Shown here one piece after another: positions 18,217 through 39,570 of a stretch of 49,796 bases of DNA. The stretch is taken from positions 1 to 49,796 of the forward strand of contig CANPYZ010000014.1 of the NCBI GenBank assembly GCA_947589035.1, given 5' to 3'. The stretch's first letter is position 1. The number at the start of each line of letters is the position of its first letter. The notes beneath the pieces were generated by a model. It was not told the DNA's origin, searched no databases, and worked only from the letters and a program-made list of their open reading frames with translations. Position numbers and translations under genes: made by a program. Source of the stretch: an uncultured Clostridia bacterium. Its GTDB lineage: Bacteria; Bacillota; Clostridia; Oscillospirales; Ruminococcaceae.

Positions 18217-18564
18217 ATGGAACTTTGCAGAATGAAAGGCGAATTTGCCTCAGAAGAATTAGCGGAATTAGCTGCCGGAAGAATCAGAAGAAGTCTGAAA
18301 AATATCCGCAGTTTACGCATTCGCAAATTAGGAAAGGCTTTCCCTTCAATGAATGGAAAACAACATTATACTATGCTTCCGGCGAACTTACGCATGGAAA
18401 ATTATGCAACAGATGTATTGATTTCTGAAATGAGTGATTCTGTTTATCCGGAATACTGGTATAGAAAAACGGCTGAATTAACAGTAATTTGCGACAAGGA
18501 AAATAAAGCAGACGTTTCCGCCACAATGCAGGCATTAGGGGCAATGCAAATCCGCATAGTCTAA
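18217..18564 (+). CDS. Hypothetical protein, 115 residues, possible two-repeat alpha/beta domain
   Basis: ATG 18217 follows ggagag at good distance. The N-terminal half (GEFASEELAELAAGRIRRSL, then KNIRSLRI) and the C-terminal half (AELTVICDKENKADVSATMQALGAMQIRIV) both look like beta-alpha-beta units, as in small ferredoxin-fold or stress-protein-like domains; a basic MNGKQHYTMLPANLR segment lies between. No cysteine motif or signal peptide. No family can be named. It stands alone between the divergent DUF951 promoter and the S1-protein leader. Confidence 0.65.
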   Translation: MELCRMKGEFASEELAELAAGRIRRSLKNIRSLRIRKLGKAFPSMNGKQHYTMLPANLRMENYATDVLISEMSDSVYPEYWYRKTAELTVICDKENKADVSATMQALGAMQIRIV

Positions 18565-18625: not shown

Positions 18626-18654
18626 TTGACAAAATGCTGAAAATATGATAGCAT
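18626..18654 (+). promoter_or_regulatory. Promoter of the S1-domain gene
   Basis: TTGACA (18626-18631), 17-nt spacer ending in TGA, -10 TAGCAT (18649-18654). Expected transcription start near 18661, exactly before the first helix of the structured leader. Confidence 0.65.
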
Positions 18655-18662
18655 GAAAGAGA

Positions 18663-18748
18663 AGGAAAACGCCGGATATCAGAAAGTCATTTGCTGTAGT
18701 TGTTCTATTCTAAAACAATCCGGCATAAACTACAGCAGGACTTTTCCT
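18663..18748 (+). promoter_or_regulatory. Structured 5' leader with pseudoknot upstream of the S1-domain gene
   Basis: Four perfect complementary pairs lie in 86 nt. P1 AGGAAAA (18663-18669) with TTTTCCT (18742-18748). P2 GCCGGAT (18671-18677) with ATCCGGC (18718-18724). P3 GCTGTAGTT (18693-18701) with AACTACAGC (18728-18736). P4 AAAGTC (18683-18688) with GACTTT (18739-18744). P4 and P3 stack as one hairpin, and the 3' strand of P2 lies in its loop, so P2 and P3 interlock as an H-type pseudoknot. P1 and P4 compete for 18742-18744. The Shine-Dalgarno cggagg (18761-18766) follows 12 nt later. No known riboswitch class is recognised. Confidence 0.65.
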
Positions 18749-18774
18749 AAAAGTAAACATCGGAGGTCGAAAAT

Positions 18775-19725
18775 ATGTATCAGAAACATTTTTGTCCAGA
18801 GGGGACACTTCTGGACACCCTTGAAAACCAGACAGCCATTTCCAGCCGTCAGGGGCTTATGCAGGCACAACTCAGCGGACGGATTCTGGAAGCCCGTGTA
18901 ATGACTTGCGACAGCGAGCATAATATGTGGGTCAATTTGCCTTGTATGCGTGGATTGATTCCCCGTGAAGAAGGTGCTGTCGGCATTGCTGAAGGGGAAT
19001 TGCGTGATATTGCGCTGATTGCAAGAGTAGGCAAACCTGTTTGTTTCAAAGTAATACGCATTGAAACAGATGAAACAGGGGAAGAACTTGCGATTTTGTC
19101 CCGTAGAGCCGTGCAGGAGCAGTGCATGGAACAATTTTTGAGTCAACTTTTGCCGGGGGATATTATTGACGCAAAGGTAACGCATTTAGAACCGTTCGGG
19201 GCATTTGTGGACATTGGTTCCGGAATCGCTTCAATGGTGCCGATTGATGCAATTTCCGTTTCCCGAATTACACATCCGGCTGACCGTTTTGTCGTAGGGC
19301 AGAATATACGGGTCATTATCAAAGGAAAACAAGACAAGCGGATTATGCTTTCTCATAAAGAATTATTAGGTACATGGGAAGAAAATGCATCATTATTCCA
19401 TGTGGGAGAAACAACATGCGGTATTGTGCGTTCAGTGGAAAAATACGGCGTATTCATTGAATTAATGCCAAATTTGGCAGGTTTGGCAGAACTCCGCCAG
19501 CCAGTGCAGGTTGGACAGCGCACAAGCGTTTACATTAAGGCGTTAATTCCGGAAAAACTGAAAGTGAAATTAATTCTGGTGGATGTTTGTGAAGATAACG
19601 CCAAACCCGAACCGTTAAAATATTTTTACCAGAAAAATCATATTGACCATTGGGTATATACGCCAATTGGTTCAGGAAAATTCATTGACACAGTATTTGA
19701 CGGAAACCTGACAGAAACTGTATAA
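18775..19725 (+). CDS. S1 RNA-binding domain protein (RpsA-like)
   Basis: 316 residues with three S1-type OB folds: a divergent one (about 29-108, EARVMTCDSEHNMWVNLP), a canonical one (about 124-198, GDIIDAKVTHLEPFGAFVDIGSG...SHKELL) and a third (about 208-272, GETTCGIVRSVEKYGVFIEL). It is shorter than ribosomal protein S1 and resembles the clostridial S1-like proteins that bind mRNA or the ribosome. The tail (KYFYQKNHIDHWVYTP) is not an S1 domain. A strong ribosome site (cggagg, 8 nt before the ATG) and an elaborate leader precede it. S1 proteins of enterobacteria repress their own translation through leader structure, so autoregulation is a reasonable inference here. Confidence 0.88.
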   Translation: MYQKHFCPEGTLLDTLENQTAISSRQGLMQAQLSGRILEARVMTCDSEHNMWVNLPCMRGLIPREEGAVGIAEGELRDIALIARVGKPVCFKVIRIETDETGEELAILSRRAVQEQCMEQFLSQLLPGDIIDAKVTHLEPFGAFVDIGSGIASMVPIDAISVSRITHPADRFVVGQNIRVIIKGKQDKRIMLSHKELLGTWEENASLFHVGETTCGIVRSVEKYGVFIELMPNLAGLAELRQPVQVGQRTSVYIKALIPEKLKVKLILVDVCEDNAKPEPLKYFYQKNHIDHWVYTPIGSGKFIDTVFDGNLTETV

Positions 19726-19733
19726 AGCAAATC

Positions 19734-19761
19734 TCCGGTTCTTTATGAACCGGATTTTTTT
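19734..19761 (+). terminator. Terminator of the S1-domain gene
   Basis: TCCGGTTC (19734-19741), 5-nt loop, GAACCGGA (19747-19754), then seven Ts. The right arm and T-run encode the last codons of the convergent thioredoxin, whose stop codon is at 19743-19745. Confidence 0.85.
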
Positions 19762-20233: not shown

Positions 20234-21694
20234 GTGAATCAATTTACCCGAATAGGCATATTAGCCTTGTGTGCATTATTGCTTACCAGCTGCGGAAAAC
20301 AGGAGGAAATCACTTCCACAGTCGAAAAAGTACCGGAAACAGTCATGCAGACGGAAACTGAGACAGAGACTGAAACAGAACCCGAAACCGAACCAGAAAC
20401 AGAAACGGAGACAGAAATGGAAACAGAACCTAAAACAGAACCTACAACACAACCTGAGACAGAAACACAGCCCCCGACACAACCCCCAACCCAACCCGAA
20501 ACACAATCGCACGCTTTCCCGTCAACGCCTGGAGCTACACCATCATCACCAGGTTCACCTGGTTATATTCCGGAGGAAAGAATGAATGATACTTTCCGAT
20601 TCGGTCAAATGAACGTTGCTCTCGAACTCATGCAAAAGCAAATGGAAACAGACGGACAGAAAAATATTTTAATTTCACCGTTTTCCATTTCCGCAATATT
20701 AGCCCTTACGGCAAACGGCGCAAATTCAACAACCCTTGAACAAATGGAAGCCTTTTTCAGTGAAGATATTCCGACACTGAATGAAGATTTACAGCAGTAT
20801 ATTGCCATTTTGGAATCAAAAAATGAAAGCAGGCTCATTTCTGCAAATTCAATCTGGCTGAAAGACGACCCAATGTTTGAAGTAAAGCCGGATTTCCTGG
20901 ACATTGCCAATAATATTTATCATGCAGAAGTGTTCAGTGAACCATTTACTTCTGATACAACAGAGAAAATTAACAGTTGGGTCAACGAACACACGGAACA
21001 AATGATTCCTTCTATTTTAGATTCCATTGACGAAAGTGCTGTTACTTATCTGATTAACGCATTAGCTTTCGAATCTCAGTGGTCTGAAACGTATACTGAC
21101 AAACAAATTGAAGATGATATTTTCACGGCGTATGACGGTTCGGAACGGACAGTACCCATGATGACCAATACAGAAAGTCGTTATTTTGAGGACGATTATG
21201 TCACAGGGTTTAAAAAATATTATCGGGGAATTTATGATTTCGTTGCCCTTCTTCCGAATGAAGGCGTGGACATGCAGGAATATCTGAATATGCTTGATGC
21301 GGAATATTTACTCAATCTTCTGGATAATCCACAGCGTGCAGATGTGATTGCTACGATACCGAAATTTTCCAATGATTACAGCTGTAACCTTTCGGAAACG
21401 CTTAAAACTTTAGGAATGGAAGATGCTTTTTCTGATTGGGCAGATTTTTCCAATATGACAGATGCTGTAGTAAAAATCAGCACAGTTCTGCACAAAACAC
21501 ATATTGAAGTCGACCAGAACGGAACGAAAGCCGCAGCGGCAACTGCTGTAGAAATGTCATTAGTCACTGCAACTTTAGACGAACCCGAACCGCCGAAATA
21601 CGTTCGTTTAGACAGACCATTTATTTACATGATTACGGATAGTTACAGCAATCTGCCGTTATTTATCGGAACAGTGAACGATATTACAAACTGA
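20234..21694 (+). CDS. Lipoprotein serpin 1 (inhibitory-type)
   Basis: 486 residues from GTG 20234, preceded by caggagga. Lipoprotein signal MNQFTRIGILALCALLLTSC with the lipobox Cys at 20. Next is an acidic Glu-Thr-Pro repeat tether (about 33-105), then a full serpin domain (about 118-486) starting NDTFRFGQMNVALELMQ and with ILISPFSISAILALTANGA. The hinge GTKAAAAT before the reactive loop has the small residues needed for strand insertion, so it should trap proteases. Counting from the hinge, P1-P1' falls near Val-Thr in AVEMSLVTATLDE, suggesting an elastase- or subtilisin-like target (inference). It would protect surface enzymes from proteolysis on the outside of the membrane. Followed after 17 nt by a paralogue. 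Confidence 0.93.
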   Translation: MNQFTRIGILALCALLLTSCGKQEEITSTVEKVPETVMQTETETETETEPETEPETETETEMETEPKTEPTTQPETETQPPTQPPTQPETQSHAFPSTPGATPSSPGSPGYIPEERMNDTFRFGQMNVALELMQKQMETDGQKNILISPFSISAILALTANGANSTTLEQMEAFFSEDIPTLNEDLQQYIAILESKNESRLISANSIWLKDDPMFEVKPDFLDIANNIYHAEVFSEPFTSDTTEKINSWVNEHTEQMIPSILDSIDESAVTYLINALAFESQWSETYTDKQIEDDIFTAYDGSERTVPMMTNTESRYFEDDYVTGFKKYYRGIYDFVALLPNEGVDMQEYLNMLDAEYLLNLLDNPQRADVIATIPKFSNDYSCNLSETLKTLGMEDAFSDWADFSNMTDAVVKISTVLHKTHIEVDQNGTKAAAATAVEMSLVTATLDEPEPPKYVRLDRPFIYMITDSYSNLPLFIGTVNDITN

Positions 21695-21711
21695 GAAAAG
21701 AGGAAATTTTA

Positions 21712-23160
21712 ATGAATAAATTGATTCAGACAGGCATATTAGCCTTGTGCGCTTTGCTGCTTGCCAGCTGCGGAAAACAGGAGGAAACAACTTCCACAAT
21801 TGAAAAAGTTCCGGAAACAGTCATGCAAACCGAAACAGAAACAGAGACTGAAACAGAACCTGAAACAGAAACTGAACCAGAAACCGAAACTGAGACAGAA
21901 ACCGAAACGGAAACGGAATCAGAAACTGAAACAGCAACTGAAACACAACCCCCGACACAACCAGTTACAGAAGCGGAAATAATACCCGCTTCACCGTCGC
22001 CTTCAAGGGAGCCGTCAGATCTCGATAGATATATTCCGGAGGAAAGAATGAATGATAATTTCCGGTTCGGGCAAATGAATGTTGCTCTTGAACTCATGCA
22101 AAAGCAAATGGAAACAGATGGACAGGAAAATATTTTACTTTCGCCGTTTTCTATTTCTACAATATTAGCCCTTACGGCAAATGGCGCAAATTCAACAACC
22201 CGTGAACAAATGGAAGCCTTTTTCGGAGAAGATATTCCGACACTGAATGAAGATTTGCAGAAATATCTTTCCACTCTGGAATCCTCAGAAGACGACAGCA
22301 GACTCATTTCCGCAAATTCAATCTGGCTGAAAGATGACCCGATGTTCGAAGTGAAACCAGATTTTATGGATATTGCCAATAATATGTATCATTCGGAAGT
22401 GTTCAGTGAACCGTTTACTTCTGAAACAAAAGATAAAATTAACGGCTGGGTTAATGAACACACAGAACAAATGATACCTTCCATTTTAGATACAATTGAT
22501 GAGAATGCTTTAATTTATTTAGTGAATGCATTAGCATTCGATTCCAAATGGTCTGACCCTTATCGTGATGAAGCTGTTGAAGAGGATATTTTCACAGCAT
22601 ATAACGGTACAGAACGTACAGTATCTATGATGAACAGTGAAGAAGACTATTATTTTGAAGACGACTATGTCACAGGGTTTTCAAAATATTATCGTGGAGG
22701 ATATAAATTTATCGCTCTTCTTCCGAATGAAGGCGTAAACATGCAGGATTATCTGAATACGATTGATGCGGAATATTTAATCAATTTTCTTGACAATGCA
22801 CAATATGAAAAAGTGTTCGCTGCTATGCCGAAATTTTCAAATGATTACAGCTGTAATCTTACAAACACACTCAAGGCTTTAGGAATGGAAAATGCTTTTT
22901 CAGCTGGTGCGGATTTTTCCAATATGACAGATGCGGCAATAAACATTAGCATGGTTCTGCATAAAACACATGTTGAAGTAGACGAAAAGGGAACAAAAGC
23001 CGCAGCGGCGACTGTTGTCGGAGCGACACCTTCTGCTGCGGCTATAGACACCAGAGAACCGAAATATGTCCGTTTAGACAGACCATTTATTTACATGATT
23101 GTGGATAATTGCAGCAATTTGCCGTTATTTATCGGGACAGTGAACGACATTACGAACTGA
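21712..23160 (+). CDS. Lipoprotein serpin 2 (tandem paralogue)
   Basis: 482 residues, same plan as serpin 1: lipoprotein signal (MNKLIQTGILALCALLLASC), Glu-Thr repeat tether, serpin domain. The two are near-identical in the core, so this is a recent duplication. The hinge GTKAAAAT is conserved, but the reactive loop differs: VVGATPSAAAIDTREPK instead of AVEMSLVTATLDEPEPPK, placing Pro-Ser-Ala near the scissile bond. The pair may thus inhibit different proteases. Shine-Dalgarno agaggaaa 8 nt before ATG 21712; co-transcribed with serpin 1. Confidence 0.93.
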   Translation: MNKLIQTGILALCALLLASCGKQEETTSTIEKVPETVMQTETETETETEPETETEPETETETETETETESETETATETQPPTQPVTEAEIIPASPSPSREPSDLDRYIPEERMNDNFRFGQMNVALELMQKQMETDGQENILLSPFSISTILALTANGANSTTREQMEAFFGEDIPTLNEDLQKYLSTLESSEDDSRLISANSIWLKDDPMFEVKPDFMDIANNMYHSEVFSEPFTSETKDKINGWVNEHTEQMIPSILDTIDENALIYLVNALAFDSKWSDPYRDEAVEEDIFTAYNGTERTVSMMNSEEDYYFEDDYVTGFSKYYRGGYKFIALLPNEGVNMQDYLNTIDAEYLINFLDNAQYEKVFAAMPKFSNDYSCNLTNTLKALGMENAFSAGADFSNMTDAAINISMVLHKTHVEVDEKGTKAAAATVVGATPSAAAIDTREPKYVRLDRPFIYMIVDNCSNLPLFIGTVNDITN

Positions 23161-30315: not shown

Positions 30316-30424
30316 GTCATACGAAGCGGGATGCGAAGTCTGTACCGCAAGCAAGGCTCTTCGTTTAGCTGACAACTCCCCGTTCAGCTAACACTTAACG
30401 CACAGACTTCTACTCTGTGTATGC
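30316..30424 (-). promoter_or_regulatory. Tetrahydrofolate (THF) riboswitch
   Basis: The minus strand carries the family landmarks in order: GAGTAGAAGTCTGTGCGTTAAGTG (strong core, split across two helices), a hairpin AGCTGAAC...GTCAGCT, AACGAAGAGCC, GCGGTACAGACTTCGCATCC, and a closing stem toward GTATG. GCGTTAAGTG and CGCATCC-type boxes are diagnostic. GAAGTCTGT pairs with ACAGACTTC. It precedes folT, its usual target, and should lower folate uptake when THF is abundant. Confidence 0.85.
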
Positions 30425-39425: not shown

Positions 39426-39450
39426 GATAGTTAAATAAAATTAAATGTAA

Positions 39451-39560
39451 ATTCTTCGAGGTCATGTGCAAGCCATGACCGGCGGTAAAGTCCGCAAGCC
39501 TTCCCTGCTGAACTGGTGCAATTCCAGTACCGACGGTAACAGTCCGGATGAAAGAAGAAT
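39451..39560 (+). promoter_or_regulatory. FMN riboswitch (RFN element)
   Basis: P1 attcttc (39451-39457) with gaagaat (39554-39560). Conserved RFN boxes appear in order: GACCGGCGGTAAAGTCCGC, CTGGTGCAATTCCAGTACCGACGGTAACAGTCCGGATGAAAGAAG-type text (positions 39478-39556). Senses FMN and controls the rib genes downstream. Confidence 0.95.
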
Positions 39561-39570
39561 GCTGTTTTCG

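Follow-up and report, generated by a model that had tools for sequence, protein, structure and literature searches.

A candidate interlocked leader RNA ahead of an S1-domain protein gene in a clade of Ruminococcaceae

The S1-domain gene and its upstream region

We analyzed a stretch of 49,796 nucleotides (hereafter the window) spanning positions 1-49,796 of the forward strand of contig CANPYZ010000014.1, from the assembly GCA_947589035.1 of an uncultured Clostridia bacterium (Ruminococcaceae). The locus of interest holds a gene for an S1-domain protein with the following features:

18626-18654, + strand: good promoter, with TTGACA (18626-18631), a 17-nt spacer and the extended -10 element TGATAGCAT (TAGCAT, 18649-18654)
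18661-18774, + strand: putative 5' UTR of the S1-domain gene, about 114 nt
18762-18767, + strand: Shine-Dalgarno (SD) sequence GGAGGT, within the conserved ATCGGAGGTCGAAAA
18775-19725, + strand: S1-domain protein gene, 316 aa (Pfam S1, E 4e-18)
19734-19754, + strand: terminator-like hairpin immediately 3' of the gene, from a consensus scan

The promoter that the initial annotation had placed ahead of the leader was found as listed, including the TG of the extended -10, and transcription would start at about 18661 judging from this promoter. An equally spaced TTGAC[ATG] + TG + TAxxxT arrangement was present 5' of the SD in 28 of 32 leaders of the genus (exceptions L065, L066, L067 and L084), and the GGAGGT itself in all 32. 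The terminator-like hairpin right behind the gene suggests that the leader serves the S1-domain gene alone. By sequence, the nearest solved chains to the 316-aa protein are bS1 proteins, and the protein falls short of the cut-off for each 30S S1 model in the NCBIfam listing. We considered a leader peptide and discarded it; 18661-18774 contains no ATG, no GTG and only two TTG.

Upstream of the S1-domain gene, 18217-18564 (+) encodes a 115-aa protein without a Pfam or NCBIfam match. At 64 of the 123 S1 loci (counting duplicates), a relative of this protein lies upstream on the same strand; 62 of these loci belong to the genus, and in them the gap between the relative and the S1 gene measures 166-423 nt.

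Interlocked helices in the leader

Four perfect complementary blocks had been described between the promoter and the ribosome site, and all of them are present. The sizes reported for P1, P2 and P4 (7, 7 and 6 bp) were reproduced, whereas P3, reported as 9 bp, is actually 10 bp. We refer to P2, P3 and P4 as helices A, B and C, and to their 5' and 3' strands as B5, B3 and so on:

18671-18677 and 18718-18724, + strand: helix A (P2), 7 bp, GCCGGAT / ATCCGGC, perfect pairing
18692-18701 and 18728-18737, + strand: helix B (P3), 10 bp, TGCTGTAGTT / AACTACAGCA, perfect pairing
18683-18688 and 18739-18744, + strand: helix C (P4), 6 bp, AAAGTC / GACTTT, perfect pairing
18663-18669 and 18742-18748, + strand: P1, 7 bp, AGGAAAA / TTTTCCT, perfect pairing in the window
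18702-18709, + strand: conserved loop motif GTTCTATT, with UUCU invariant in eight representatives of the clade defined below
18725-18727, + strand: AUA linker joining the 3' strands of A and B, invariant in the same eight representatives

As annotated, P2 and P3 (A and B) interlock in the H-type manner and P1 and P4 share bases, at 18742-18744; helix C extends B downward, and 17 nt separate the end of the knot from the SD. The AUU of GTTCTATT is part of a further hairpin, E, in relatives, and the window has lost this hairpin. Helices A and B are interlocked and conserved, a pattern in which sequence fits their coexistence and their mutual exclusion alike.

Such a density of blocks had been thought unlikely by chance, and dinucleotide shuffling of the 115-nt stretch bore this out. 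Out of 6000 shuffles, 21 contained a stem of at least 10 bp, one contained such a stem interlocked with another of at least 7 bp, and none combined the interlocked pair with a third stem of at least 6 bp. Scanning the entire 49.8 kb in 1988 segments of 115 nt (step 25) returned the interlocked pair in 6 segments, 2 of them at the leader site, and the pair with the third stem in 2. The folding energy of the leader was ordinary (z -0.56; 52 of 200 shuffles as stable), a value that covers nested folds only, as nested folding is unable to score a pseudoknot.

Distribution among relatives

Of the 38 genomes of the genus, 33 carry the S1-domain gene at E ≤1e-40; for the family the count is 251 of 297 genomes. 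The genus comparison comprised 32 distinct leaders (30 plus L125 and L126, which were cut out separately); G341 is without a leader, its protein match beginning at residue 28. A tree delimited a clade of 14 leaders that includes the window (L001, L022, L057-L067 and L126). The tree, like the model search of leaders outside the clade, comprises the leaders other than L125 and L126, and the placement of L126 in the clade rests on its leader. We built a covariance model from 13 of the 14 clade leaders, which hence match it by construction; L126 is an independent match with 161 bits. Outside the clade, L071, L074 and L080 matched at E <0.01, and weak matches at the S1 leader (E 0.019-0.088) were obtained for L018, L072, L076, L077, L078, L081 and L085. 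The E values for L075, L073 and L069 were 1, 2 and 7, respectively, and L070, L082, L083 and L084 gave no match up to E 10. At 51 loci outside the genus, with S1 proteins 48-63% identical, the best model match had E 0.48. Only the clade of 14 leaders has the A/B/C fold, and one of its members (L065) is without B5 and C5.

In L065, B3 and C3 are unchanged although B5 and C5 are gone; this may be a genuine loss or a mistake in the assembly. Two related genomes, L069 and L070, which may come from rabbit gut judging by their contig names, have about 28 nt of additional GC-rich sequence separating the folded region from the SD.

We searched 61 genomes (37 of the genus) with the model. Strong matches (E ≤2.1e-4) were recovered in 15 genomes, one in each and every one of them at the S1-domain gene. 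Across the 297 family genomes, four matches reached E ≤0.01, three in the genus at the S1-domain gene and one judged to be chance. In all, two borderline matches that could have been second copies were dismissed as chance, one in G340 between convergent gene ends (28.8 bits, E 0.007) and one in G203 where a ParA-like gene begins (30.7 bits, E 0.0034). The association with a single gene was judged on the strong matches and these two borderline ones; weaker matches occurred at E 0.05-1, and there were two weaker ones in G008 and G034. With Rfam 15 at gathering score, the whole window yielded two riboswitches elsewhere and nothing at the leader. The leader alone gave one chance match at 13 bits (E up to 10), and 18 relatives gave 8 weak matches (E up to 5), none covering the leader. 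These searches agree with the initial annotation, which had recognized no known riboswitch or ribosomal-protein leader class.

A metabolite-binding RNA had been called equally possible, and a metabolite riboswitch now appears to be the weaker option. The compact interlocked helices, the invariant UUCU and AUA, and the near-isoenergetic states described below would suit a riboswitch, but its strong matches are single in each genome and always precede one non-metabolic gene, rather than the genes of one metabolic pathway. In addition, helix B is missing in L065 and was not found in L071, and Rfam found nothing across the leader region of the 18 relatives. We therefore consider a new riboswitch class improbable.

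Selection and covariation within the clade

The window leader is 73-82% identical to seven clade representatives, compared to 31-43% at fourfold-degenerate sites of the S1 gene, which shows that selection acts on the leader as an RNA. Among all pairs of eight clade leaders (8 of the 14 were used), UUCU and AUA were fully identical (1.00), followed by the A strands (0.94-0.96), C3 (0.92) and B3 (0.85); at the other extreme, J1, J3, the E loop and the one-base spacer ranged from 0.22 to 0.36. The identities of B5 (0.68), C5 (0.71) and the E strands, together 0.62-0.71, did not exceed those of linker L1 and the 5' end (0.70-0.71). Clear conservation of P1 was not seen in the leader alignments.

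In the structure-blind alignment, A1, 93.6% of the cells were paired, compared to 27-43% when the partner was slid, and the covariation score was reached by 1 of 500 shuffles. Two-sided changes occurred in helix B (C-G to U-A in L063, L064, L066 and L067; U-A to C-G in L062) and in hairpin E (G-C to A-U in L059). The number of such pairs, three, was reached by 121 of 500 shuffles; for the further pair types, 472 of 500 shuffles did as well. No two-sided change was present in helix C in A1. The structure-guided alignment alone added a change of G-C to A-U in B of L059, also in L126, and changes of A-U to C-G and G-C to U-A in C of L062, where helix C consists of GCATTC paired with GAATGT. One mismatch occurs in helix C of 4 of 13 clade leaders. 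A third alignment, A2, was fitted to the model and gave 10 pairs changed on both sides, a number reached by none of 500 shuffles. We rejected A2 as the main evidence and preferred A1, since A2 leans on L071, whose helix B there is a local hairpin.

Helix A kept 7 of 7 Watson-Crick or GU pairs in 12 of 13 clade leaders and 6 of 7 in L062 (L065 left out), and A1 contained no two-sided change in it within the clade. On these alignments helix A is conserved, not covarying, and B, C and E carry compensatory changes, for C only under the structure-guided alignment. Covariation, by which the initial annotation had proposed to judge P1-P4, was found for P3 in the structure-blind alignment and for P3 and P4 in the structure-guided one, but not for P2, which is near-invariant within the clade and so offers no two-sided change; P1 lacks clear conservation.

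Divergent leaders of the genus

Helices A, B and C are kept beside the gene in the clade of 14, apart from B5 and C5 in L065, but were not detected in the divergent leaders of the genus. In 15 divergent leaders, crossed controls paired as well as the true A strands (2619 of 5000) and the true B/C strands (2618 of 5000). The same permutation with 23 representatives gave 11 (A) and 1 (B/C) of 5000; the 23 were drawn from 31 leaders by leaving out near-duplicates, L065 and L126, and L084 was out for want of a GCATA anchor. We take the signal from the 23 representatives to be driven by the contrast between the clade and the outsiders, as no signal comes from the 15 divergent leaders by themselves.

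What persists across the genus is sequence, mainly in the 3' part, rather than helices: besides GGAGGT, 30 of 32 leaders (all but L084 and L125) have GCATA no more than 70 nt ahead of the SD. A local hairpin, GC-AUAGGAU-GC, gave 184 of 5000 in the divergent leaders and 1621 of 5000 in the clade representatives (L070, L077 and L084 left out). This hairpin, modestly supported in the divergent leaders, may be an older form, and the full fold would have arisen within the clade on top of a more ancient 3' module. We rejected an extra helix between the UUCU loop and AGGAC (loop-to-3' test, 1659 of 5000 overall and 1189 of 5000 in the divergent leaders). The likeness of GGUUCUAUUCC to a tRNA T-arm was dismissed by eye, because the sequence variation there agrees with hairpin E.

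The persistence of GCATA (30/32) and GGAGGT (32/32) as sequence, not as helices, would be consistent with another trans-acting factor, such as a different RNA-binding protein, a small RNA, temperature or an RNase, acting on the conserved UUCU/AUA and SD region. We think this quite unlikely; no candidate presents itself, and such a factor alone would leave the compensatory changes of helices B and C and hairpin E unaccounted for. It is very improbable that the helices are chance pairings inside a merely conserved 5' UTR. The frequency with which shuffles reach the count of two-sided pairs and the lack of signal in the divergent leaders are in keeping with chance, but the three-stem combination was absent from 6000 shuffles, 93.6% of the cells were paired although the fourfold sites are near saturation, and L062 is altered on both strands of B and of C. 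The leader is very likely a control element of the S1-domain gene.

Proposed mechanism

We give an even chance to the proposal that the leader is a genus-restricted cis-regulatory RNA acting on translation of the S1-domain gene, with the S1-domain protein as the probable effector. Autoregulation by the S1 protein and switching, both raised by the initial annotation, are parts that we infer, as are the transcription start, translation as the level of control, the protein as the ligand and the direction of control. Helix A and the B+C arm, joined in relatives by hairpin E, would form either one H-type pseudoknot or two competing folds. If A formed without B and C, the freed 3' strands of B and C could close over the SD and the start codon, with UACA of B3 pairing with UGUA at the start codon and GAC-UUCC, from C3, pairing with GGAGGUC at the SD. 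If B and C formed, these strands would be occupied and the SD would be more open. The S1-domain protein would shift the balance between the folds and close a feedback loop; we propose it as the most likely effector because S1-type proteins bind and melt pseudoknots. S1 is reported to bind H-type pseudoknots (PMC7708055) and to melt the rpsO pseudoknot on the 30S subunit (PMC3858243).

The predicted unpaired probability of the SD in the isolated 3' half was 0.05-0.16 in 13 of 14 clade leaders and 0.57 in L062. With A enforced it was 0.05-0.23 in 12 of 13 clade leaders, and with A, B and C all in place the SD was predicted to be 0.57-0.70 open (three leaders computed). Enforcing B alone left the SD open (≥0.45) in only 4 of 13 leaders. 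The ensembles of the A state and the B state were at most 3.1 kcal/mol apart in 11 of 13 leaders, and B was favoured by L001 (-4.5) and L062 (-10.1); these energies cover 13 clade leaders (L065 out, having no B5), and L084 was out of the SD-masking computations. The near-isoenergetic states make a switch plausible. Masking of the SD did not exceed chance, being equalled by 28-93 of 300 shuffles in 13 clade leaders, and was absent in L062. Outside the clade, in L073, L076, L077, L080, L082, L083 and L125, the SD was more open than in at least 262 of 300 shuffles. The better conservation of B3 and C3 than of B5 and C5, together with their retention in L065, suggests that the 3' strands are under a second constraint, and a second partner in the SD/start region would explain it.

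In L062, B, C and the linker merge into a near-continuous helix of about 20 bp that is apparently incompatible with A; the extended B+C arm would leave a linker of 1-2 nt, probably too short for A to coexist.

The pseudoknot might also serve as a landing or standby site that recruits the 30S subunit or S1 and enhances translation without a feedback switch, as with the S1-bound 5' pseudoknot that tisB is reported to employ (PMC7708055). The 17-nt distance from the knot to the SD and the openness of the SD with A, B and C in place (0.57-0.70, three leaders) are compatible with such a site. However, a perfect GGAGGT should need little help, low-GC Gram-positive ribosomes are reported to be without S1 (PMC10931766), and the fold was undetected in sister species, so we regard a standby function as unlikely.

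Comparison with known systems

In gamma-proteobacteria, S1 is reported to repress its own mRNA through a region without a proper SD (PMC10931766). The rpsA region resembles the present leader in being a structured leader directly ahead of the gene for an S1-repeat protein, with feedback proposed. It differs in that rpsA is without a canonical SD and reportedly loses repression when given one (PMC10931766), whereas the leader described here has GGAGGT at 18762-18767. Moreover, the present leader consists of interlocked helices, belongs to another phylum and precedes the gene for a shorter S1 protein. The rpsA mechanism is not simply transferable, because it needs a weak SD. S1 is also reported to be absent from Bacillus-type ribosomes, where the function of the S1 gene is described as unsettled (PMC10931766).

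The rpsO (S15) leaders of E. coli and mycobacteria are similar in that a 5' UTR pseudoknot controls translation of the downstream ribosomal protein, control being a proposal in our case, and the mycobacterial pseudoknot is reported to lie upstream of the initiation site (PMC10931766), as here. The protein is a different one, and the leader described here is without any Rfam match. With tisB, our leader shares a 5' pseudoknot ahead of the ribosome site, S1 being the reported binder in tisB (PMC7708055), but tisB is a toxin mRNA with a distant, masked ribosome-binding site, and S1 autoregulation is not proposed for it. Lineage-limited structured leaders of ribosomal-protein genes are also reported among the 20 comparative-genomics leaders of Eckert and Weinberg (PMC7247131) and for the rpsJ motif of Peptostreptococcaceae (PMC11109978).

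Like such leaders, ours has a covarying 5' UTR structure, within the 14-leader clade and not in divergent members of the genus, and precedes one gene only (15 of 15 strong matches and 3 of 4 family-wide matches). The downstream product has the Pfam S1 match and bS1 proteins as its nearest solved chains by sequence, and lies under the NCBIfam 30S S1 cut-offs. The terms 'bS1' and 'uS1' are absent from the main text of PMC7247131, and the open-access literature searched, including PMC7247131, PMC11109978, PMC8632094 and PMC6429828, yielded no S1 leader in Firmicutes. The leader thus appears to be a clade-limited cis-regulatory element with an architecture of its own, outside the known Rfam classes. 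A further claim, that it is the first autoregulatory S1-protein leader beyond the gamma-proteobacteria, through which an S1-repeat protein, in bacteria whose ribosomes reportedly do not carry S1, selects between two interlocked and nearly isoenergetic folds, one hiding a perfect SD and the start codon, is one we put forward only tentatively and would not favour at present. As a conserved RNA that is probably the target of the S1-repeat protein, the leader offers a concrete substrate for testing what this protein binds and does. It is also a small natural system for learning whether interlocked helices behave as a true knot or as mutually exclusive states of a switch.

Other features of the window

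The two riboswitches found elsewhere with Rfam, and a pair of tandem genes, are located as follows:

20234-23157, + strand: tandem pair of serpin genes (Pfam Serpin matches at E 2e-84 and 3e-89)
30322-30419, - strand: THF riboswitch (RF01831, 87.8 bits)
39448-39563, + strand: FMN riboswitch (RF00050, 94.3 bits)

The translations of the tandem serpin genes have a lipoprotein-like start and Thr/Glu-rich repeats ahead of the serpin domain, and the pair is likely a duplication.
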